Positions 32,014 through 41,758 of a stretch of 64,000 nucleotides of DNA are shown in pieces (within the stretch, counting starts at the first letter, position 1; the number at the start of each line of letters is the position of its first letter). Source of the DNA: Candidatus Cryptobacteroides choladohippi. Lineage in GTDB: Bacteria; Bacteroidota; Bacteroidia; Bacteroidales; UBA932. The stretch spans positions 1 through 64,000 of the forward strand of contig JAGHSF010000059.1 in NCBI GenBank assembly GCA_018065985.1, read 5' to 3'. Made by a program: the position numbers and the translations under genes. The notes under the pieces were generated by a model, which searched no databases, was not told the DNA's origin, and saw only the letters and a list, made by a program, of their open reading frames with translations.

Positions 32014-32460
32014 ATGCTTCTGTCAAAAAGAATAGCGGTTTGCCTCAATCTGGCTGCATGCAAGCTCAAACAGTATACCGCAGCCCAGCTGAAGCGTTGC
32101 AATGTAGGTCTCACTCCCGAGCAGTTCCTGCTCATCGACATCCTCTGGAACCAGGGTCCCATGTCTCAGCAGAGCGTGGCCGACCTCATGCAGAAGGACA
32201 AGAACTCCATCACCAAGCTGGTGGATGCTCTCGAGAAGAAGGGTCTTGTGATGCGTAAGAAGGATGTGACCGACAGGCGCTCGAACCTTATCGTGCTCAC
32301 TTCCGAAGCCGAGGATCTGAAATTCGGTGCGAAGGAGACAGGCATCTCCATACTCGACAGCATCCTCGAGGGAATCAGCGAGGAGGAACTGGAGAACTTC
32401 CTCGGCACGCTTGCCAAGCTTACGGGAAACATGGAGCTGAAGATTCTGAGCGAGGGCTAG
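32014..32460 (+). CDS. MarR-family transcriptional regulator
   Basis: A 148-residue winged-helix regulator. The MarR domain is clear: PMSQQSVADLMQKDKNSITK, VDALEKKGLVMRK and the wing DVTDRRSNLIVLTSEAE. Such proteins usually dimerise and repress from 16-20 bp palindromes until a small ligand binds. It sits with the C69 dipeptidase gene and ends four bases into the last gene of the convergent sul-hdr operon. That operon's promoter has two 18-bp palindromes of MarR-like size, so this protein is a candidate regulator; the link is inference from proximity only. Confidence 0.92.
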   Translation: MLLSKRIAVCLNLAACKLKQYTAAQLKRCNVGLTPEQFLLIDILWNQGPMSQQSVADLMQKDKNSITKLVDALEKKGLVMRKKDVTDRRSNLIVLTSEAEDLKFGAKETGISILDSILEGISEEELENFLGTLAKLTGNMELKILSEG

Positions 32461-34259
32461 CAGCTCTCGTCGAGAATCTCTGCAATATCCTTTACCGGGC
32501 GGTCGGCGTATCGTCCGAATGTGCTCATGCACAGGGGACAGCCGGTGGCTATGGCATCGGGTGCATCCTTGACAAGGTCATCCAGGGCATTCCTGGTCAT
32601 CGCCTCCCTCTGGGCGAATCCCAGCGTCAGACTTCCAAGGCTGCCGCCGCAGCATATGCTCTCTGCATGGTTGTGGCCGGCTTCCCTGAGCTCGGCACAG
32701 CGTCCCAGCAGATCCCTTGGCGCTTCGTAGATGCCGCTGCCGCGTCCCAGTTCGCAGGGGTCATGCCAGACCACTGAACCGCTGCCTTTGACGGGCGAGA
32801 GCTTGCCCAGCCTGACAAGTTCGTCGAAGTACTGGCTGTGGTGTATCACCCTCACTCCGGGAAGGCTGTAGTGCTCCCTGAAGATCTTGTAGCATATGGG
32901 GCAGCTGAGTATCAGCGTGTGGGCGCGGGATTCGCTGATGATCTGCTCGTTCTTGCGTATCAGCTGCTTGGCCTCGCCTATCTTTCCTGCGGTGAGCATG
33001 GGCCTTCCGCAGCACAGTCCGCCGTCGCGGTCCATCCACACATAGTTGACCCCGGCCTTTTTCAGCACCGACTCCACCGCCCTGGGAATGCGGGGCGTGA
33101 GCTGGGTCATGCAGCCGGCAAAGTACAGGACCTTGGACCCTCTGGCCGCGTCTGCGAGCGGACGGGTGTCTATCCCGGAGTAGTCCTGCTCTATGCTGTA
33201 GCGTCGGGTGGCACGCTGGGCCATGCGCAGCGTCGGTCCTTCTACGCCCACCTGGCATACCGCCTGGCATTTGCCGCACAGCAGGCACTTGTCGCTTATC
33301 TCGTCCACGCGTTTTTCGTGTCCGCGCCTGATGTGCCTGTTGAGGTACACGGTGCAGTCCTTCAGATTGGCCTTCTTCACGCTCATGGGGCATGCGTCGA
33401 TGCACACGCCGCAGCTCGGGCAGCTGAAGATCTCGGCACGGGCAAATCCTCTGCGGGCGTGGCGTATGCGGAGCCCGGCGTTGCGCATGGGAATCAGCAG
33501 CATCTCTGCCGGAATGTGCATGTAGCGGGTGAACGGCAGCACGAACATGAATACGCCCAGCGCTATGGAATATGCCCACCAGGTGGGGAGCATGTTGAAC
33601 TCGTTGCCGAGGAACTGCCTTGCCATCCAGTTGAGCGGAATGGTCATGAAGGAACCGCCGCTGATATGGGCTGTAAAGCCCTCTGCCAGCCATCTGAGCG
33701 GAAATATGGCCCACAGGGCATACTGGCCTATGAGATCGAGGAAAGACGGCCTCGTGGTCCTTCTCATGCCGAATATGAGCGAGCGGAAGCGCTTGATGAC
33801 CGCCAGTGCTATGCCCACCAGCACCACAAGCAGGAAAAAGTCCATCAGGAAGAAGAGTACCGAGCCTTTCACGGTGCTGTCGGCCTCTGCCACGAAGTAG
33901 TTGAAGAAGATGGGGTAGTAGAAGAACTTTATGCGCTCAGGCACGAAGAGGATCACCTCCACATGGCCCAGCACTATTAGCATGAACCATCCGAAGGCTA
34001 TGCTTGAGTGCATGAAGCCCAGCATGGGGTTGCGCTTCCACAGCTTGACATGCAGCAGACAGTTGAGAAAGATGTCCTTCACGTTCTTCACCGCCGTTTC
34101 CGGGGTGATGAGGGACTTGTAGAACTGAAGCCTGTCCTCCCTCGGGAGCTGCAGAAGTATCTTCAATATACCGTAGATGCAGTAGCCGAACACGAAGAAC
34201 ATTCCTGCCAGGAAGGGCAGGACGAAGGGGTGGAATCCTGATGCTATCCTGTCTATCAT
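32457..34259 (-). CDS. Membrane-bound HdrD/DsrMK-like iron-sulfur oxidoreductase
   Basis: A 600-residue protein from the ATG at 34259 (MIDRIASGFHPF), whose ATGA overlaps the stop of the small HdrC gene. The N-terminal half (about 1-265) has five or six membrane spans with His residues (GFMHSSIAFGW, VLGHVEVILFVPE, FTRYMHIPAE), as in quinone-reacting NarI/DsrM-like subunits. Two [4Fe-4S] motifs follow: CPSCGVCIDACPMS and CLLCGKCQAVCQVG. Two complete CCG domains follow: AGCMTQ...LCCGRP...CPIC and HDPCELG...ICCGGS...CPLC. The protein combines HdrE and HdrD functions and should move electrons between menaquinone and a thiol/disulfide or sulfur substrate. Confidence 0.85.
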   Translation of the reverse strand: MIDRIASGFHPFVLPFLAGMFFVFGYCIYGILKILLQLPREDRLQFYKSLITPETAVKNVKDIFLNCLLHVKLWKRNPMLGFMHSSIAFGWFMLIVLGHVEVILFVPERIKFFYYPIFFNYFVAEADSTVKGSVLFFLMDFFLLVVLVGIALAVIKRFRSLIFGMRRTTRPSFLDLIGQYALWAIFPLRWLAEGFTAHISGGSFMTIPLNWMARQFLGNEFNMLPTWWAYSIALGVFMFVLPFTRYMHIPAEMLLIPMRNAGLRIRHARRGFARAEIFSCPSCGVCIDACPMSVKKANLKDCTVYLNRHIRRGHEKRVDEISDKCLLCGKCQAVCQVGVEGPTLRMAQRATRRYSIEQDYSGIDTRPLADAARGSKVLYFAGCMTQLTPRIPRAVESVLKKAGVNYVWMDRDGGLCCGRPMLTAGKIGEAKQLIRKNEQIISESRAHTLILSCPICYKIFREHYSLPGVRVIHHSQYFDELVRLGKLSPVKGSGSVVWHDPCELGRGSGIYEAPRDLLGRCAELREAGHNHAESICCGGSLGSLTLGFAQREAMTRNALDDLVKDAPDAIATGCPLCMSTFGRYADRPVKDIAEILDESC

Positions 34260-34579
34260 TTCTTTTCGTATGTTCTGCAGATGCTGAGAATGAGATGGCG
34301 GGTGTTGATGCCTCTGGGGCATACCATGGTGCATTTGCCGCAGAGCATGCAGCAGGAGAGCATCCCTGACACGTCAGTGCCGCGCTGCAGGCCGAGTATG
34401 ACCTTGCGCATGCTCATTCCGGAATACTGCCCGGCGGTGCAGGTGGCGCTGCAGCTTCCGCACGCCATGCATGTCTTCATGTCCGGCTCCAGCCTTTCGA
34501 TCTTCCTGTACAACGAGAGGTCGGCCCTGTCAAGATCGATGGTCGAGCTTGGGGAAAGTCTGAATCCGAATTCCATCAT
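34256..34579 (-). CDS. Small HdrC-like ferredoxin subunit
   Basis: The real gene is the last 107 codons of the track ORF 34256..35083; the earlier part is a shadow of hdrA. It starts with two tandem ATGs (MMEFGFRLS) overlapping the hdrA stop. Two [4Fe-4S] motifs, CMACGSCSATCTAG and CMLCGKCTMVCPRG, identify an HdrC/QmoC-type electron carrier. It is half the length of the upstream HdrC, so the operon has two distinct C subunits. It overlaps the membrane subunit gene by four bases and probably wires HdrA to it. Confidence 0.85.
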   Translation of the reverse strand: MMEFGFRLSPSSTIDLDRADLSLYRKIERLEPDMKTCMACGSCSATCTAGQYSGMSMRKVILGLQRGTDVSGMLSCCMLCGKCTMVCPRGINTRHLILSICRTYEKK

Positions 34580-35586
34580 CTGCTGAGGTAATTGAATATG
34601 CTGAGTGCGGCGGCGCGGGCTTCCGCAACCGTCTCCGGAACCGTCTTGGTGCCTGTGCATGCTCCCGCGAAGAAGATTCCGGGCTTCTGCGACTCCAGAA
34701 TGCTGTAGATGTTGTCCTTGCTGCGCAGGAAACCGTCCGTATCGACTTCGACGTGCAGCATGTCGGCGATGCTCGTTGCAGACGGGTTGCACTGCATGCC
34801 CGCCATGAGGCAGAGGCAGTCCATCTGAATCTTGAGGGGCTTGCCGCTGAGCGTGTCCTCTGCCTTGACCTGCACGCGGCCGTCTATGGTCTCGCTGACC
34901 TCGCTGACGCGTCCGCGGATGAACCGGATGCCGTAGTCGCGCTGCGCGTTGAGGTAGAAGTCCTCGTATTTCTTGCCGAAGAGGCGAAGGTCCATATAGA
35001 AGCAGAAGACCTCGCAGCCGGGGAACTTCTCCTTGATCTCGATGGCCTGCTTGATGGCTGTCATGCAGCATACCTTGGAGCACTGGGTGTTGCCGGCCTT
35101 GATGTCCCTGGACCCTACGCAGTGCACGAAGCCGAAAACTTTCGGTTCCCTGGGGATGCGCAGGTCCTCGGCTCCGGCGAACCAGTTCTCGAGGTCCCTG
35201 TTGGTTATCACATGGTCATAGACCCCGTAGCCGTATTCCTCCTTCTTTGCGGCATCGAACAGCTTGAACCCGCTGGCAATGAGCACGGCGCGGCTGAGGA
35301 TGTTCACACCGTTCGAGAGCATTACGGCATAGCCGTCCTTCAGGCGGTTGATGCTCTGCACCGTGGTCTCCAGGAAGATGTTGGCTTCCCTGCAGCTTTC
35401 CACGAGTTTTGCAACCAGTTCCCTGGCCGGCGTCATGTCGGGGAACAGCCTGTGCCAGCAGGCAACGTGTCCGCCAAGGTGGTCGGACTGCTCCACGATT
35501 ATGGGACGCAGGCCCAGCGACAGCATTTGCCTGGCTGCTTCAAGTCCGGCGACTCCTCCGCCTATGATGATGACGTTCTCTTTCAT
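34576..35586 (-). CDS. hdrA: HdrA-like FAD/iron-sulfur subunit
   Basis: A 336-residue short HdrA, comparable in layout to QmoA or sulfur-oxidiser sHdrA and far smaller than methanogen HdrA. The FAD Rossmann motif IIGGGVAGLEAARQMLSLG is N-terminal. The HdrA cluster motif CVGSRDIKAGNTQCSKVCC lies near residues 155-175. LIASGFKLFD and the C-terminal PGIFFAGACTGTKTVPETVA complete the FAD site. It lacks the N- and C-terminal ferredoxin extensions of bifurcating HdrA, so flavin bifurcation is not assured. It overlaps the small HdrC gene and follows hdrB by three bases. Confidence 0.88.
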   Translation of the reverse strand: MKENVIIIGGGVAGLEAARQMLSLGLRPIIVEQSDHLGGHVACWHRLFPDMTPARELVAKLVESCREANIFLETTVQSINRLKDGYAVMLSNGVNILSRAVLIASGFKLFDAAKKEEYGYGVYDHVITNRDLENWFAGAEDLRIPREPKVFGFVHCVGSRDIKAGNTQCSKVCCMTAIKQAIEIKEKFPGCEVFCFYMDLRLFGKKYEDFYLNAQRDYGIRFIRGRVSEVSETIDGRVQVKAEDTLSGKPLKIQMDCLCLMAGMQCNPSATSIADMLHVEVDTDGFLRSKDNIYSILESQKPGIFFAGACTGTKTVPETVAEARAAALSIFNYLSR

Positions 35587-35589
35587 AAA

Positions 35590-36660
35590 CTAATGACATT
35601 TAAGCACTTGTGGCATCTCAGGACGGAGGAGGTCCTCCTTGTTGAGACCCAGATACTTCTCTGAAGGCTTGTATTCGATTCCTATCTTGTCAAGGAAAGG
35701 CTCCACTGCCACCTGGTGAACCTGAAGGCCAAGGTCCCAGGGGTTCTCTCCCAGCACCAGACCGGCAAGTTCCTCATAGGTGAACACAGGAATGCCGTAT
35801 CCGTTCTGGCCGTAGGTCTTGCCTGTCTGCTCGGCTATCACATACTGCCAGCGGTCCAGGAAATATGGGCATCCGGGGCAGTTGGTGATGATTGCGTCAG
35901 GATGGTAAGGCTCCATCGACTCGAACTTCTTGTGGGTGTTCGACACGCAGTAGCCTCTGTTGGCCTTTACGAGGTACTGGCGGAAACCGAATCCGCAGCA
36001 GTGCCGGCGCTCGGGGTAGTCGATAACCTGGCCTCCCCAGCTCTCCACCATTCCGCTGAGCACGCAGGGATATTCCGCCCCTCCCACACCCTTGTGGGGG
36101 AACATCTTGGAATAATGGCAGCCTATGTGCTCGACTATCTTCAGGGGCTCTCCCGTCTCCTTGTCCACCAGGCGGTACTGCGCGTTCTCGGCAATCTGGT
36201 TCCTGAACTTGTAGACAAGGTCGCTTGCATGAGCTATATACTTGGGAATCTTGAATTCCCGGCGGCATGCCTTCCACAGGTTCTCACGTATCCTTGCCTC
36301 CAGTTCCGGGAACTCCCTCCATGTCTCGATGGTCTCGGTGTAGTTTCCGAAGGAAGTTATGCAGGACACCACCAGATTGTCGTATCCGCACTCGGTCATG
36401 AGGGCGAACTGGCGCGCGACAATGGTCATGGCAGTCTCCTGAGGTATGGTGTCGGAATGGTAGGCTATGCCTCCGCAGGTGGTATGGTGCTCGTTGTCGC
36501 AGATGTCCTTTCCCAGGAGATCGCGGCATATCTTCAGAAAGTATTTCTCGCTTGCCGGGAAAAAACTCTGACGTATGCAGCTGCGTGCATAGTACCAGTG
36601 GTCATCGGGGATGTCCTTCTGGTAGTCCGACCATATTTTCTGTTTGCCTTGATAGATCAT
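35590..36660 (-). CDS. hdrB: HdrB-like CCG-domain subunit
   Basis: A 356-residue HdrB relative, probably the catalytic disulfide- or sulfur-handling subunit. The C-terminal CCG domain is complete: EHIGCHYSKMFP, RRHCCGFGFRQY and TNCPGCPYF. The N-terminal CCG domain is degenerate, with HHTTCGGIAY in place of CCG and VVSCITSFGNY in place of the CxxC element. A classical HdrB binds two non-cubane clusters through two CCG motifs; here perhaps only one is normal. The gene sits between two hdr genes with two- to three-base gaps, so co-translation is likely. Confidence 0.83.
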   Translation of the reverse strand: MIYQGKQKIWSDYQKDIPDDHWYYARSCIRQSFFPASEKYFLKICRDLLGKDICDNEHHTTCGGIAYHSDTIPQETAMTIVARQFALMTECGYDNLVVSCITSFGNYTETIETWREFPELEARIRENLWKACRREFKIPKYIAHASDLVYKFRNQIAENAQYRLVDKETGEPLKIVEHIGCHYSKMFPHKGVGGAEYPCVLSGMVESWGGQVIDYPERRHCCGFGFRQYLVKANRGYCVSNTHKKFESMEPYHPDAIITNCPGCPYFLDRWQYVIAEQTGKTYGQNGYGIPVFTYEELAGLVLGENPWDLGLQVHQVAVEPFLDKIGIEYKPSEKYLGLNKEDLLRPEMPQVLKCH

Positions 36661-36662
36661 TT

Positions 36663-37400
36663 TCAGTCGTTGTTGAAGTGAATGTCGGAGCAGTGCTCGA
36701 AGGTATGCCTGCGATACTCTTCCATGCTCATACCCATCTCCTCAGCCTTCTTTCGGGAGAATTCCTCCACCAGTGCCGTTCTTTCGGTGCCTCCGCTGAC
36801 GTCGAAGATGGCCTTGAGTTCCGACATGTCCTCGGGAGCGATCTGCCTGAGGGCACCGGGACCCTTTCCCTTGTAGTTGGCTCCCATCCTTGCATAGCTT
36901 GCCTCCTTGTGCTCGAGGTGCCATTTCCATACGGGGCCCGACTCGGGGTGATCCTCGAACCTGAAGGTGTCGGGGTATACGCAGTAGCCGTATTCCAGGA
37001 TATTCCTGTTGATGGCTTCGGTAAGCGGGTAGATCTGCCTTCCCCTCTCGGACTCGGTGAAGTATCCCAGCTTGACGGAGAGGTTGCGCAGGGCCATGAT
37101 GACCTTGCCCGGGGCATTGCTTCTGGGGCATCGCGTCATGCAGGACATGCATTCCCCGCAGTACCAGATGGTCTCGCTCCGCAGCAGGGCCTCTATCTCG
37201 CTGTCATCCTTGCGCTGGACCGTATCCACGATCTTTCGCGGGTCATAGCGGTAGAACTCCGCAGCAGGGCATATGGCTGTGCAGGTTCCGCAGTTTATGC
37301 AGGCCTTCAGGCCTTCGCGGAATCTGTAATCCTTGCACAGCTCGTCATACAGTTTCGTTGTCACTATACAGGTTTCAGTTTTCTTGCCAATCTCGAGCAT
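36663..37400 (-). CDS. hdrC: HdrC-like ferredoxin subunit, long form
   Basis: A 245-residue subunit with two [4Fe-4S] motifs, CINCGTCTAICPAAEF near residue 34 and CGECMSCMTRCPRS near 82. The C-terminal half is helical, with no cluster. It should carry electrons between HdrA and HdrB. The track ATG at 37400 lies 37 bases inside the SDR gene. A GTG at 37364 shares its G with the SDR stop (TAGTG) and gives a 233-residue product, so translational coupling there is an attractive alternative start. It opens the five-gene hdr block C-B-A-C-D. Confidence 0.85.
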   Translation of the reverse strand: MLEIGKKTETCIVTTKLYDELCKDYRFREGLKACINCGTCTAICPAAEFYRYDPRKIVDTVQRKDDSEIEALLRSETIWYCGECMSCMTRCPRSNAPGKVIMALRNLSVKLGYFTESERGRQIYPLTEAINRNILEYGYCVYPDTFRFEDHPESGPVWKWHLEHKEASYARMGANYKGKGPGALRQIAPEDMSELKAIFDVSGGTERTALVEEFSRKKAEEMGMSMEEYRRHTFEHCSDIHFNND

Positions 37401-38140
37401 AGTCCCGGGAAGAAGCGCTTGATGTACACCATCAGCAGTTCCTTGCGCCCGACCAGGACTTCTCTTTTTCCCTTGCTTATCGCACGGGTGATCCTGCGTG
37501 CCGCCGTCTTCACGTCAAGTCCGCCGGCCTGGCCGGGGTCCATCTTTCCGTAGCGGGCGCCGCCCTCCACCAGTGCGTTCATTGAAATGTTCGTCTGTAC
37601 CCTCCCGGGGCACACCATGGTGACATCTATCTCCCTGTGCTCGGCCGCCAGAGTCTCGAAGAATCCGTACAGTGCAAACTTCGACGAGCTGTATCCGCAT
37701 CTGAGAGGAAAGCCGAAGCGGCCAGCTATGGAGCTTGTCACGGCAATCTTCCCGCCGCCCTGCGAGAGCATCAGGGGAAGAATGGCCTTGCTTATCGCTA
37801 CAGGGGCGAAGAAGTTGATTTCCATGATTTTGCGTATGGTCTCCATGGAGGTGTCCTCGATGCGTGTGCGCTGGCTTACCCCGGCGTTGCAGAACAGTAT
37901 GTCAAGCCCGGAGAAGGCCTCCCATGCCTGCTGGCAGAGAGCGTCGATCCCGGATGCATCCTGAAGGTCGAACGGCAGGACCACCGCGCCCCCGGCTCCG
38001 ATACGCATGCAGCCGTCGGCCACTCTCTGAAGCCTGTCGGCGGAGCTGGCCGTGAGCACGAGGCAGGCGCCCTGCGCGGCGTACTCGTACGCGCAGGCTT
38101 CCCCTATCCCCGAAGATGCCCCTGTGATCCAGACTTTCAT
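37364..38140 (-). CDS. SDR reductase, candidate 3-ketocapnine reductase
   Basis: A 258-residue short-chain dehydrogenase. The NAD(P)-binding motif TGASSGIGEACAYEYA is N-terminal. NAG is in LFCNAGVS, the catalytic Ser in AVTSSIAGRFG and YxxxK in CGYSSSKFALYG. A hydrophobic-basic tail (IKRFFPGLCSRLARKLKPV) suggests membrane association, as in ketosphinganine reductases of the same superfamily. Its position directly after a cysteate-synthase-like gene and an SPT/SulA-type gene points to reduction of the 3-keto product to capnine. That assignment is by context. It overlaps the upstream gene by four bases. Confidence 0.8.
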   Translation of the reverse strand: MKVWITGASSGIGEACAYEYAAQGACLVLTASSADRLQRVADGCMRIGAGGAVVLPFDLQDASGIDALCQQAWEAFSGLDILFCNAGVSQRTRIEDTSMETIRKIMEINFFAPVAISKAILPLMLSQGGGKIAVTSSIAGRFGFPLRCGYSSSKFALYGFFETLAAEHREIDVTMVCPGRVQTNISMNALVEGGARYGKMDPGQAGGLDVKTAARRITRAISKGKREVLVGRKELLMVYIKRFFPGLCSRLARKLKPV

Positions 38141-39351
38141 GCCAGTACTGCTTTTCTGAATCCGGTGTTACGCTCCGACCCTTCGCCCATGTTGACGGAA
38201 ACCACGTCTCCGTTGTGGATGAGGCCTTCCTCGAGAGCCTTGAGGAATCCGGCGATGCAGACCATTGCTGCCGGTCCGGGGATAACTCCCGTGTTTTCGT
38301 GAATCCATCTTGCCAGTTCCACGAGGCTGTCTTCCTTCACTCTCACGAAGGATCCGCCGCTCTTGTGAACGATGGGAGCCACGATGGGGAACATTCCGGG
38401 CGTGCCGGTCGAGAGAATGGAGATCGAGGTGCGTGGTGTGACGCTTGGGAAGTCCTTCTCCCAGCCTTCGGGGAAGCCTTCGCTCCTGGCTTTCTCCCAG
38501 CCGAGGACCATGGGGTCGCAGGTATCCTGCTGCGCAAGTATCATCCTCGGCAGCCTGACGTCCATACCCTGGGCATTCAGCTCGCGCACGCCTTTGTCAA
38601 GCGCTATGGGGGCTGTTCCGCCGCTCACGGCCTGCACATAGACATCCGGCATCCTGCCTATCTGGCGGAGGTACTCGAACACGAGTGTTCTCTTGGATTC
38701 CACGCGTATGGGGTCGATGTTGCCTGCGGTCATCAGGGTTCCGGTCTGCATGCTGAATGCGGCGGCCTCCTTCTTGGCATCGGCGTAGTTGCCTTGCGAG
38801 ATGCGCAGGTCCTGCCTGTGCGACATGATGGTCAGGGCGGTGTCCGGGGAGACGTCGCAGGGCACGAAGATGGTGAATTTCACATCAGCCTCGGCACAAT
38901 AGCGGCTGAAGGCTGTGGCGGTGTTTCCTGTCGATGCGGCGCAGAAGTGCTTCACGCCCCATTCCTTGAAGAGGGATGCACCCAGTGCCGCAGCGGGGTC
39001 CTTGAAGGTGCCGGTGCCGCCCGAGAGGTCGGAACGTGACACAAGCGGAGTGCAGTCTATGCCGTACTTCTGCTTTGCGTAGTCCTTGAGGCACTTCCAT
39101 TCCTCGAAGGGAACGGCGCCCTCGCCGAGGGTGACGATGTTCTCGCGATGCTCCAGAGGAAGAAAGTCGAACCAGTGGAAGAGGTTCTCGGCCTTCCGGC
39201 TGCAGAGTTCGGGCAGTTTCGCGTAGTCGGCAAAGTATCTTGCCTCCGCCCTCTGGCAGCCGCATGTGCATTTCTGCCCTTCGGCGAACCACTGGCCAAA
39301 GCTCTCTATCTCCCGCCCGCAGGATGTACAGTAAAGGTGATATTTCGCCAT
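38137..39351 (-). CDS. Cysteate-synthase-like PLP enzyme (threonine synthase family)
   Basis: A 404-residue fold-type II PLP enzyme. The N-terminus has a zinc-ribbon-like set of Cys (LYCTSCGRE, then CTCGCQ). The PLP lysine is in GGTGTFKDPAAALG, and the phosphate/PLP loop in AASTGNTATAFSRYC. The family is threonine synthase. In methanogens a cysteate synthase that makes cysteate from phosphoserine and sulfite evolved from this family (established knowledge). The context here, next to an SPT/SulA-type acyltransferase and an SDR, makes cysteate for sulfonolipids the best reading. A true threonine synthase is the alternative, but nothing else of threonine synthesis is nearby. Confidence 0.72.
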   Translation of the reverse strand: MAKYHLYCTSCGREIESFGQWFAEGQKCTCGCQRAEARYFADYAKLPELCSRKAENLFHWFDFLPLEHRENIVTLGEGAVPFEEWKCLKDYAKQKYGIDCTPLVSRSDLSGGTGTFKDPAAALGASLFKEWGVKHFCAASTGNTATAFSRYCAEADVKFTIFVPCDVSPDTALTIMSHRQDLRISQGNYADAKKEAAAFSMQTGTLMTAGNIDPIRVESKRTLVFEYLRQIGRMPDVYVQAVSGGTAPIALDKGVRELNAQGMDVRLPRMILAQQDTCDPMVLGWEKARSEGFPEGWEKDFPSVTPRTSISILSTGTPGMFPIVAPIVHKSGGSFVRVKEDSLVELARWIHENTGVIPGPAAMVCIAGFLKALEEGLIHNGDVVSVNMGEGSERNTGFRKAVLA

Positions 39352-39354
39352 GTA

Positions 39355-40620
39355 CTAGTGGATTAGGGCCATGTCTGGCATTTCGTGGTCGTATTCGCCG
39401 CGCTCGAGCCTCTCCTTGATGTCCTTGAATGCGGCCAGTGTACGGTCCACATCCTCGATGGAGTGCGCTGCGGTGGGGATTATGCGGAAGATGAGCATTC
39501 CCGGGGGAATGACGGGGTAAGTCACGATAGAGCAGAAGATGCCGTAGTTCTCTCTGAGGTCCACAGCGATGTTGGAGGCCTGGTTCACACCGCAGTAGAG
39601 GTGTACCGGGGTCACGCATGCCTCTGCGGGTCCGATTTCGTATCCGAGTTCGCGGAAGCCTTCCTGCAGTCTGCGGGTCACCTTCCAGAGCTGGGCTCTG
39701 AGCTGGTCTCCCTCGGCGCTGCGTATGATCTCGAGACGCTTCAGACAGCCCTCGACTATGGGCATGGGAAGGCTCTTTGCGTACATCTGCGAGCGCATGT
39801 TGTATCGCAGGTAGTTGATGATGTCCTTGTCTGAAGCCACGAATCCGCCAATGGTTGCCATCGACTTGGCATAGGCGCCGATGTAGAGGTCGATGCCGTC
39901 CATCACGCCGAAGTGTTCGGAGGTGCCGCGGCCGTTCGGACCCATTACGCCGAAGCCGTGGGCATCGTCGATGAGTATGCGGAAACTGTATTTCTTCTTC
40001 AGTGCAACTATCTGGTCGAGTATGCCGAGTGCGCCTGTCATGCCGAACACACCCTCGGTGATGAGGAGCACGCCGCCGCCGTTGGCGTCAGCCTCCTCAG
40101 TGGCCTTCTTGAGCTTCTGCTCGCAGGATGCAATGTCGTTGTGCTTGAATTTGTACACGCTTCCCATATGCATGCGCACGCCGTCGATGAGGCAGGCATG
40201 TGCTTCGGAGTCGATCACGACCACATCGTGGCGGCTCAGAAGGGAATCTATGGTGGAGACTATGCCCTGATATCCGAAGTTGAATTCGAAGGCGGCCTCC
40301 TTGCACTCGAACTCGGCAAGCTCGCGCTCGAGCCTCTCGTGCAGTTCGGTCTGGCCTGTCATCATGCGGCTTCCCATAGGGTATGCCATACCCCAGCGTT
40401 CAGCTGCCTGAGCGTCTATCTTTCTGATTTCAGGGTGATTGGCGAGTCCGAGGTAGTTGTTCAGACTCCAGCAGAGCACTTCCTTTCCGTTGAAGCGCAT
40501 GTGGGGGCCAAGCTCTCCCTCAAGTTTAGGGAAAGCGAAATAGCCGTCAGCCCTGTCTCTGTACTGTCCTATCGGTCCTCCCGAGGACTTTCTGATCTTG
40601 TCAAAAATGTCTACTTGCAT
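39355..40620 (-). CDS. sulA: Alpha-oxoamine synthase, candidate cysteate acyltransferase SulA (or SPT)
   Basis: A 421-residue fold-type I PLP enzyme of the serine palmitoyltransferase/KBL family. Seen directly: NNYLGLANHPE near residue 75, DDAHGFGVMGPNGRGTSEH and the PLP lysine in AYAKSMATIGGF. The SPT-like segments YLRYNMRSQMYAKSLPMP and NYGIFCSIVTYPVIPPGM are also present, which separate it from KBL and BioF. It should condense a fatty acyl thioester with an amino acid. With a cysteate-synthase-like gene four bases downstream, cysteate is the likely amino acid, giving 3-ketocapnine as described for SulA of Alistipes. Serine (sphingolipid) remains possible and sequence reading alone cannot decide. 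Confidence 0.78.
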   Translation of the reverse strand: MQVDIFDKIRKSSGGPIGQYRDRADGYFAFPKLEGELGPHMRFNGKEVLCWSLNNYLGLANHPEIRKIDAQAAERWGMAYPMGSRMMTGQTELHERLERELAEFECKEAAFEFNFGYQGIVSTIDSLLSRHDVVVIDSEAHACLIDGVRMHMGSVYKFKHNDIASCEQKLKKATEEADANGGGVLLITEGVFGMTGALGILDQIVALKKKYSFRILIDDAHGFGVMGPNGRGTSEHFGVMDGIDLYIGAYAKSMATIGGFVASDKDIINYLRYNMRSQMYAKSLPMPIVEGCLKRLEIIRSAEGDQLRAQLWKVTRRLQEGFRELGYEIGPAEACVTPVHLYCGVNQASNIAVDLRENYGIFCSIVTYPVIPPGMLIFRIIPTAAHSIEDVDRTLAAFKDIKERLERGEYDHEMPDMALIH

Positions 40621-40622
40621 AT

Positions 40623-41696
40623 TTATCTGATTTTTTCTTTTGATACTAGTCCCATCATCCTGAAGAGGAATTTTGGAAGCCTCTTTCTCGGGTCGCGTTT
40701 TTTCATGTCAATGTACCAGCCCAGTTTCTTGGCCACCGGAATGCTGTGGGTCTCGACGAACTCGATGAGGGTGCCGTCGGGATCCTCTATGTAGGTGAAG
40801 TGGCCTGAGGCGTCGCCCATGTCGAAGACTTTGCCTCCCGGGCAGCTGTCGACGGTGAACGGATGACCTTTGCTCTCGCAGAACATTCCCAGTTCCTTCA
40901 TTCCCGTCACATCGAAGCAGATCTGGATGAAGCCGGGGTCACCCCAGAAGCGTCCCTCGTATATCTTGCGGGGGTTACGGTCCAGCGCCTGCACCAGTTC
41001 GATCGTGTTCTGCCCGAACAGACCGCAGAATGCCCCCTGGCGCTCCTTTGCTGTTCCGAGCAGCACGCGGCGGTACCTCTGGTAACCGTACGGGAACGGT
41101 CCCAGGTCATCGAAGGTGCCTGTCGTGTCGTAAATGACTTTGTCGAATCCGAGCACCTCGGAGTAGAACTTCACCGATCTGTCGATGTCGGTGACGCCGA
41201 CGACTGCACCTGTGATTCCGCCGGTGAGGCGGTTCTGCTCGATGAAGACACTCCTGTCCTCGACTATCTGGAAGAAGTTGCCGTACAGGTCCCTGACGAT
41301 GAAGGTGCGTGTTCCGTCGGGAAGAGACGACACTTTGCCGCAGTCTGTCCATTTCCGGGTTATCTCGTTGTGGAACGCTTCCACGTCGCGGCATTTCACC
41401 TTTGCGGCAAAGATGCCGAGGTCGCCTGCGGCAGGCTCAAAGGGGCAGGGTACGGGCTTGCGCTCCGAGTATTGCCATATCTCAAAGCCGCCGCCTCCCT
41501 GCAGGCTGATGGCTATGCATGCGTGTCTTTTCTGCGGGACACCACCGGTGTAGGGAAGCATACGCTCGGCTACCGTGTCGTCCTCGAGAATCTTGACGTC
41601 GATGCCGAACATCTCGATGAACCAGTTCCAGGACTTGCGGAAGTCCATGGTTCCCACACCCACCTGCTGTATGCCTGAAATGAAGAAATCGTTCAT
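40623..41696 (-). CDS. Double-domain VOC protein, HPPD-sized but lacking the metal His residues
   Basis: A 357-residue vicinal-oxygen-chelate protein, the length of 4-hydroxyphenylpyruvate dioxygenase, with four beta-alpha-beta modules. Glu positions are kept (NTIELVQAL, GTLIEFVET). The strand positions that hold iron-binding His in HPPD read GAVVGVTD and GFIQICFDV, with no His. An oxygen-using dioxygenase is therefore unlikely, which suits an anaerobe. The C-terminal tail is basic and hydrophobic (KRLPKFLFRMMGLVSKEKIR), perhaps membrane-binding. It is the first gene of the sul-hdr operon, two bases before sulA. It may bind a lipid or acyl intermediate, or use another metal; function is unknown. 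Confidence 0.72.
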   Translation of the reverse strand: MNDFFISGIQQVGVGTMDFRKSWNWFIEMFGIDVKILEDDTVAERMLPYTGGVPQKRHACIAISLQGGGGFEIWQYSERKPVPCPFEPAAGDLGIFAAKVKCRDVEAFHNEITRKWTDCGKVSSLPDGTRTFIVRDLYGNFFQIVEDRSVFIEQNRLTGGITGAVVGVTDIDRSVKFYSEVLGFDKVIYDTTGTFDDLGPFPYGYQRYRRVLLGTAKERQGAFCGLFGQNTIELVQALDRNPRKIYEGRFWGDPGFIQICFDVTGMKELGMFCESKGHPFTVDSCPGGKVFDMGDASGHFTYIEDPDGTLIEFVETHSIPVAKKLGWYIDMKKRDPRKRLPKFLFRMMGLVSKEKIR

Positions 41697-41698
41697 TT

Positions 41699-41758
41699 TA
41701 GTAAAAGCATTTACTATTTATATCTGCAAATATAGTAAACGGTTTTACTAACGCCAAA
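41699..41758 (-). promoter_or_regulatory. sul-hdr operon promoter with twin operators
   Basis: On the minus strand TTTG (41755..41758) and TATATTTG (41727..41734) are 20 bases apart. Two perfect 18-bp palindromes of the form TAGTAAA-N4-TTTACTA occur at 41733..41750 (spacer CGGT, between -33 and -7) and 41699..41716 (spacer AGCA, two bases before the ATG). Their centres are 34 bases apart. The inner half-sites also form TTTACTAT/ATAGTAAA (41710..41739). This geometry fits repression by a dimer, perhaps with DNA looping or a tetramer. Confidence 0.8.

Follow-up and report, generated by a model that had tools for sequence, protein, structure and literature searches.

An hdr operon joined to sulfonolipid genes

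Where the sulfite for the cysteate of sulfonolipids comes from is the question raised by a 64,000-nucleotide stretch of Candidatus Cryptobacteroides choladohippi (contig JAGHSF010000059.1, positions 1 to 64,000 of the forward strand; hereafter the window), in which five genes for a heterodisulfide reductase (Hdr)-like complex directly follow four sulfonolipid genes. Links to host inflammation and to diet have been described for the sulfonolipids of gut Bacteroidales, among them Alistipes and Odoribacter (PMC11211663 and references therein). The literature found does not address the sulfite source for cysteate in their synthesis, and no publication joining sulfonolipid with heterodisulfide reductase, and no description of this complex, was found. 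A comparison of 129 Bacteroidales genomes suggests that the complex supplies sulfite for sulfonolipid synthesis without oxygen.

The hdr genes lie on the minus strand in the order C-B-A-C-(membrane)D with a short HdrA at 32457-37400, as a preliminary description of the window had stated. They encode HdrC1 (36663-37400; 245 residues, two 4Fe-4S motifs), an HdrB1-type HdrB (35590-36660; 356 residues, with an intact C-terminal and a degenerate N-terminal CCG site), a short HdrA (34576-35586; 336 residues, with a flavin adenine dinucleotide (FAD) fold and a CSKVCC cluster motif, without ferredoxin domains), HdrC2, a small ferredoxin-like subunit (34256-34579; about 107 residues, two 4Fe-4S motifs), and an HdrDE/EtfD-like membrane subunit, here HdrD (32457-34334), predicted to be a menaquinone module. 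The open reading frame listed for hdrD has 625 codons and overlaps hdrC2; a start at 34259 is more likely and would give a protein of 600 residues, its start codon overlapping the hdrC2 stop as ATGA. The hdrA and hdrC2 genes overlap by 4 bases with nothing between them. Across all nine genes, up to position 41696, the intergenic gaps range from -37 to +3 bases, indicating that the hdr and sulfonolipid genes form one nine-gene operon, and the C1-B-A-C2-D order is seen again in about 90 other Bacteroidales loci, so that the arrangement is not due to chance.

The best match of the SulA (CFAT) protein encoded at 39355-40620 on the minus strand, the cysteate acyl transferase or 3-ketocapnine synthase, in the Protein Data Bank (PDB) is 7U7H, SulA from A. 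finegoldii (1e-170), and the second is 28EH, a cysteate-C-fatty acyltransferase. The protein carries the Lys281 motif QMYAKSLP, which is present in 101 of 103 related proteins and separates SulA from serine palmitoyltransferase (PMC9304779); judged by sequence, the assignment is firm. The adjacent gene (38137-39351, minus strand) encodes a 404-residue fold-type II enzyme dependent on pyridoxal phosphate (PLP), which had been described as a cysteate synthase. It is not the canonical enzyme, as it scores 126.8 bits against TIGR03844, below the curated cut-off of 324.9, and it is also below the threonine-synthase cut-offs. The window-type enzyme occurs in 28 and the TIGR03844 enzyme in 34 of the 129 genomes, with no overlap (p=5e-5), and the window-type gene adjoins CFAT in several families. 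From its context and because it never co-occurs with the canonical enzyme, it is read as a probable alternative cysteate synthase. The ketoreductase-type SDR at 37364-38140 (minus strand) is a probable 3-ketocapnine reductase, judged from its context, an activity class that is known (PMC11211663). The first gene of the operon (40623-41696, minus strand) encodes a two-part VOC/glyoxalase-fold protein of 357 residues; this fold is a steady companion of SulA, in both hdr/CFAT and cysH/CFAT neighbourhoods of other families.

Distribution of hdr and a possible source of sulfite

The 129 genomes surveyed across the order are related, and the Fisher tests disregard the tree except in a repeat with one genome per family; as the genomes are drafts, apparent absence may be incompleteness. 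The hdr genes are present in 41 of 95 SulA-positive genomes and in one of 34 SulA-negative genomes (p=3.7e-6). Within the SulA-positive set, hdr occurs in 16 of 20 genomes without CysD/CysH (PF01507, hereafter CysDH) versus 25 of the 75 that carry it (odds ratio 8, p=2.6e-4; p=1e-3 with one genome per family and p=6e-4 with genomes at least 90% complete), and either CysDH or hdr is present in 91 of the 95. Across all genomes, where SulA is not conditioned on, the relation of hdr to CysDH is marginal (p=0.03). Genomes without CysDH provide a control for habitat, and among these hdr is found in 16 of 20 SulA-positive versus 0 of 13 SulA-negative genomes (p=5e-6). Among SulA-positive genomes, hdr shows no genome-wide association with either cysteate synthase (p=0.21), and the link is therefore carried by SulA, CysDH and synteny. 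A sample of the phylum, comprising 297 genomes, contains SulA in 77 and hdrB only in the window's own genome, suggesting that the complex is mainly a feature of the window's order.

The window's genome was searched for PF01507, PF01747 (Sat) and PF01077 (siroheme reductase, the family of DsrAB) and none was found, nor was any of the three found in a genome of the same genus that is rated 100% complete (G008). Neither the window's genome nor the hdr-positive genomes lacking CysDH yielded an ATP sulfurylase of either type. PF01077 occurs in 7 of the 129 genomes of the order, and 89 of the 96 CysDH-positive genomes are without any siroheme sulfite reductase, so that sulfate assimilation in CysDH-positive genomes seems to end at sulfite. 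Two sulfonolipid clusters from other families (L250:12344-18270 and L271:4486-10823) contain cysH-cysD-cysN together with a transporter gene and cysQ, without a sulfite reductase, and here cysHDN occupies the place in the sulfonolipid cluster that corresponds to hdr. Either cysH or cysHDN lies within the sulfonolipid clusters of G062, G104, G056, G069 and G085, being cysH alone in the last three; in G026 cysH is nearby, and a cysteate-synthase-like gene has cys genes next to it in G022 and G010. The CysD/N/H module thus resembles the Hdr complex in genomic position and in its predicted product, sulfite for cysteate, but consists of unrelated proteins and reduces sulfate with ATP rather than performing redox chemistry on reduced sulfur. 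Distribution and position together suggest that cysHDN and hdr have one function in common, the supply of sulfite, and the survey suggests a general rule by which SulA-positive Bacteroidales possess a module that takes sulfate only as far as sulfite, or the Hdr complex, or both. A link between the hdr genes and sulfite supply had been proposed from the window, and the genome survey lends it strong comparative support.

Positional linkage extends beyond the window. The hdr genes share a cluster with sulfonolipid genes in the window and in G041, G108 and G081, and in G008 they lie beside the canonical cysteate synthase; the linkage in these four further genomes, three of which are from other families, is independent, and linkage in 5 of 41 has a probability of about 2e-4 under a simple placement model. 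In a second collection of 62 loci, hdrD is followed by a TIGR03844 cysteate synthase in 21 (420-465 bits versus the cut-off of 325 in the four that were checked), these 21 being close relatives and not independent. Most SulA neighbourhoods contain neither sulfite nor hdr genes, and synteny alone is therefore weak. In G081 (locus L169) the hdr order is changed to C1-C2-D-B-A and the genes are still grouped with those for the VOC protein, SDR, PLP enzyme and SulA.

Sequence type of the Hdr subunits

HdrA from the window aligns to HdrA models only at about positions 315-556 of 777; the ferredoxin domains that methanogen HdrA has at its N and C termini are missing. Among solved structures its best match is sHdrA from Hyphomicrobium (6TJR), a subunit of the Hdr system of sulfur oxidisers (sHdr), which matches over the full length at 1e-59, although methanogen HdrA reaches a similar score in a partial alignment. 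On the HdrA tree, Bacteroidales HdrA and HdrA from a Picosynechococcus plasmid form one group from which methanogen HdrA is separate (support 97/96), and the lone sHdrA reference sits on a long branch just outside this clade. References for sHdr are few (6TJR and plasmid records), as are those for Qmo, and owing to the scarcity of the former the tree places the complex neither inside nor outside sHdr.

HdrB retains the ligands of the C-terminal CCG site (C181, C221, C222, C261 and C264), whereas the N-terminal site is reduced to C28, T61-C62 and C100-x-x-S103, with conserved H59 and H68. Each of the 100 HdrB sequences examined from Bacteroidales shows this degenerate pattern, apart from minor T/S and H/Q exchanges, and it is present also in Picosynechococcus HdrB1 and in HdrB from an Acidithiobacillus plasmid, a candidate sHdrB1 encoded near a GcvH-like gene; methanogen HdrB and Picosynechococcus HdrB2, in contrast, possess the full N-terminal CCG set. 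The active site of the window HdrB is accordingly of the HdrB1 type. The split from methanogen HdrB is supported at 100/100 on the HdrB tree. The expectation that the proteins would be unlike methanogen HdrABC is thus borne out by both trees, in which no clustering with ferredoxin- or NADH-linked Hdr was observed, and the likeness to sHdr is upheld by the match of HdrA to 6TJR and by the HdrB1-type signature.

The membrane subunit has five predicted membrane helices, two 4Fe-4S (Fer4) domains and two CCG domains, the composition of an EtfD-type protein, and EtfD (9OJN) is its top match by both structure and sequence. H95, H109 and H273 are invariant in 15 sequences and are candidate heme b ligands. 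Racemases also appeared among the Foldseek matches and were discarded as noise of low TM-score. EtfD passes electrons to menaquinone (PMC13083937).

Relation to sHdr and other known systems

Known sHdr clusters have the order shdrC1B1AHC2B2, and type II clusters carry a fused B3 and EtfAB. The window operon shares with them C1-B-A-C2 in order, followed by a B2-like protein, a short HdrA without ferredoxin domains, a predicted product, sulfite, and an HdrB1-type site ([TS]C, CxTSFxxY, YHxD and CCGxGFR) that is also found in the Acidithiobacillus plasmid HdrB. It differs from them in the tiny C2, in the lack of LbpA and ShdrH, and in the second CCG protein, which is fused to an EtfD-like membrane module and takes the place of B2; its hosts are anaerobic-type Bacteroidales rather than lithotrophs, and its role would be biosynthetic. 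The sHdr system is described as inevitably associated with the lipoate-binding protein LbpA, which is essential to it (PMC6067878; PMC10332631), and in a survey of Bohai Sea sediment the genome-assigned sHdr clusters were proteobacterial (PMC12345210). Free HdrB2, B3, EtfAB and ShdrH are all absent from the operon, and given that LbpA is missing as well, the complex cannot be filed as sHdr and must handle sulfur differently. On this sequence evidence it does not appear to be a true sHdr, though it may well work like one.

A related cluster outside the order is encoded by Picosynechococcus PCC 7003 on a plasmid (L183:6065-11805, NZ_CP016476.1; hdrC1-B1-A-C2-B2-SQR-like). Its HdrA sits inside the Bacteroidales clade, suggesting horizontal transfer, and its HdrB1 is 41% identical to the window HdrB and has the equal active-site pattern. 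The cluster differs in having a free HdrB2 and a sulfide:quinone-reductase-like flavoprotein, with no membrane HdrD or adjacent sulfonolipid genes. On the Acidithiobacillus ferrooxidans plasmid (L284:787-4490, NZ_AP025161.1), a long HdrB-like protein is encoded on its own rather than as part of a full sHdr cluster, with hemerythrin genes and a GcvH/LbpA-like gene nearby.

EtfD/FadF-type menaquinone reductases (9OJN) resemble the membrane subunit in having five helices and an identically ordered set of two 4Fe-4S and two CCG domains, but identity by structure alignment is about 17% and the partner in the window is an HdrABC-type set rather than ETF. Methanogen HdrABC, HdrA2B2C2 and HdrDE have homologous subunits and fold and an intact C-terminal CCG site, whereas the window set lacks bifurcating partners and the HdrA ferredoxin domains, has a degenerate N-terminal HdrB site and falls into separate clades. 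A methanogen-type bifurcating HdrABC was rejected given the 336-residue HdrA without ferredoxin domains and the lack of a hydrogenase or formate dehydrogenase partner in the operon. QmoABC acting with APS (adenosine 5'-phosphosulfate) reductase was rejected as the operon contains no QmoB- or QmoC-like fusion and no ATP sulfurylase was found, aprAB not having been searched for, and DsrMK-like sulfite reduction was rejected as the window's genome yielded no PF01077 protein. In another genome of the order (G024, L160:1-5634), a QmoABC-like trio of 853, 657 and 355 residues is encoded directly upstream of the hdr operon and a methionine-gamma-lyase-like gene lies downstream.

Proposed route to sulfite and its alternatives

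The operon may constitute a self-contained anaerobic sulfonolipid route with its own sulfite generator. HdrB, being of the B1 type, would take sulfane sulfur, probably as the persulfide of a protein or of a small molecule, which would originate from cysteine, sulfide or thiosulfate, and HdrC1-B-A-C2-D would oxidise it to sulfite, with electrons passing from HdrC1 to the FAD of HdrA, then to HdrC2, the EtfD-like subunit and menaquinone. The adjacent PLP enzyme would convert sulfite and phosphoserine to cysteate, from which SulA and the ketoreductase would then produce capnine. Where relatives have retained CysD/N/H, sulfite made from sulfate would fill an equal role. Product, direction, sulfur donor and electron acceptor are all what we infer, and the oxidative direction is favoured because of the B1-type site, the EtfD-type subunit and feasible potentials, as those of sulfide/sulfite and menaquinone make anaerobic oxidation to sulfite feasible. 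That an LbpA-independent, membrane-anchored, sHdr-like complex oxidises sulfane sulfur to sulfite for cysteate synthase has, in our judgement, an even chance of being correct. The broader proposal of a new LbpA-independent, menaquinone-coupled branch of sHdr, which would produce sulfite for lipid biosynthesis rather than energy in strict anaerobes and replace sulfate assimilation across many Bacteroidales families, is more tentative and falls slightly short of that.

Several observations weigh against such a sulfite generator. The assembly of the window's genome (2.24 Mb) is 93% complete, and incompleteness may underlie some absences. In other genomes hdr usually lies apart from the sulfonolipid genes; 25 SulA-positive genomes have both hdr and CysDH, which are hence not strict alternatives, and four (G003, G033, G055 and G058) have neither. 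Habitat is a potential confounder of CysDH loss, although the absence of hdr from all 13 SulA-negative genomes of the control argues otherwise. The lipoate-binding partner, already noted as missing from the window, is also missing from its genome, where the sole GcvH-type protein is the canonical gcvH of gcvT-H-PA-PB, and no GcvH/LbpA-type protein was found in the hdr-positive genomes G004, G018, G047 and G123. Genes for the sulfur carriers TusA, DsrE or rhodanese are not present in the operon, no genome-wide search for them having been made.

The main rival, which we regard as unlikely, is reductive release, in which menaquinol, with proton motive force, would drive the cleavage of thiosulfate or of an S-sulfonate such as S-sulfocysteine, giving sulfite together with a thiol or sulfide. 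All of the genomic evidence on sulfite supply fits this equally; two-electron cleavage of an S-S bond is native Hdr chemistry, fits the disulfide-reductase ancestry of HdrB and HdrD, and needs no lipoate carrier, in line with the missing LbpA. The HdrB signature, however, matches the type known from one sulfur oxidiser and not that of disulfide-reducing methanogen HdrB, quinone reduction is the known activity of EtfD-type subunits, and the reduction of thiosulfate by menaquinol is strongly uphill. The enrichment of hdr where CysDH is missing, and the occurrence of cysHDN in the equal place, would be left unexplained if the complex served sulfonolipid synthesis without being its sulfite source, for example by setting the redox state of a partner with a thiol or persulfide group (such as the VOC protein or a carrier) or by disposing of electrons or sulfide; a role of this kind is doubtful, but the shared operon and co-occurrence tie hdr to SulA and not to a reaction, which speaks in its favour.

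A general anaerobic redox complex, acting as a menaquinone-linked electron sink and merely sharing operon and lifestyle with SulA, is improbable. It is consistent with the restriction of hdr to a single genome of the phylum sample, with the many hdr loci that stand alone with other neighbours, and with the Qmo-like and lyase-like genes that adjoin hdr in G024, but not with the failure to find hdr in SulA-negative genomes lacking CysDH or with repeated sulfonolipid linkage in separate families. The reducing direction had been put forward earlier as the alternative, and in a Qmo-like form, with menaquinol electrons driving APS to sulfite, it would likewise yield sulfite; the gene set resembles that of Qmo in its HdrA- and HdrC-like parts. 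With PF01507 and PF01747 not found in the window's genome or in hdr-positive genomes lacking CysDH, APS could not be made by a known enzyme, and the HdrA is short and the operon has no QmoB-type subunit; this route is very unlikely. If the complex does oxidise reduced sulfur, it would represent an anabolic and strictly anaerobic form of sHdr-type chemistry without the lipoate carrier that is now thought essential, which would bear directly on how sHdr works and would connect gut sulfide or cysteine to a bioactive lipid.

Promoter, operators and regulators

A Bacteroidota-type promoter is predicted upstream of the VOC gene on the minus strand (41727-41758), consisting of TTTG (41755-41758), 20 bp and TATATTTG (41727-41734), in agreement with the TTTG/TAnnTTTG consensus. 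Two perfect palindromes, TAGTAAA-N4-TTTACTA, are candidate operators, the first inside the promoter spacer (41733-41750) and the second between the promoter and the first start codon (41699-41716). Nothing else in the 64 kb matches this pattern even when 2 mismatches are allowed, against an expectation of 0.03 matches. The palindrome pair is present with equal spacing in the nearest relative, L036, and in L070 a related palindrome lies directly 5' of a marR-hdrC1 operon.

The candidate repressor is a MarR-family regulator encoded on the plus strand (32014-32460), convergent with hdrD and overlapping its end by 4 bases. Close homologues are encoded near hdr in 11 loci, and directly upstream of hdrC1 in L066-L068 and L070, suggesting that the MarR protein may be a dedicated repressor of the operon. 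A gene for a NarL-type response regulator adjoins or is near hdr in seven other genomes (G004, G022, G064, G065, G072, G090 and G116), and in six of these seven loci a second conserved gene, which may encode its kinase, is adjacent to it.

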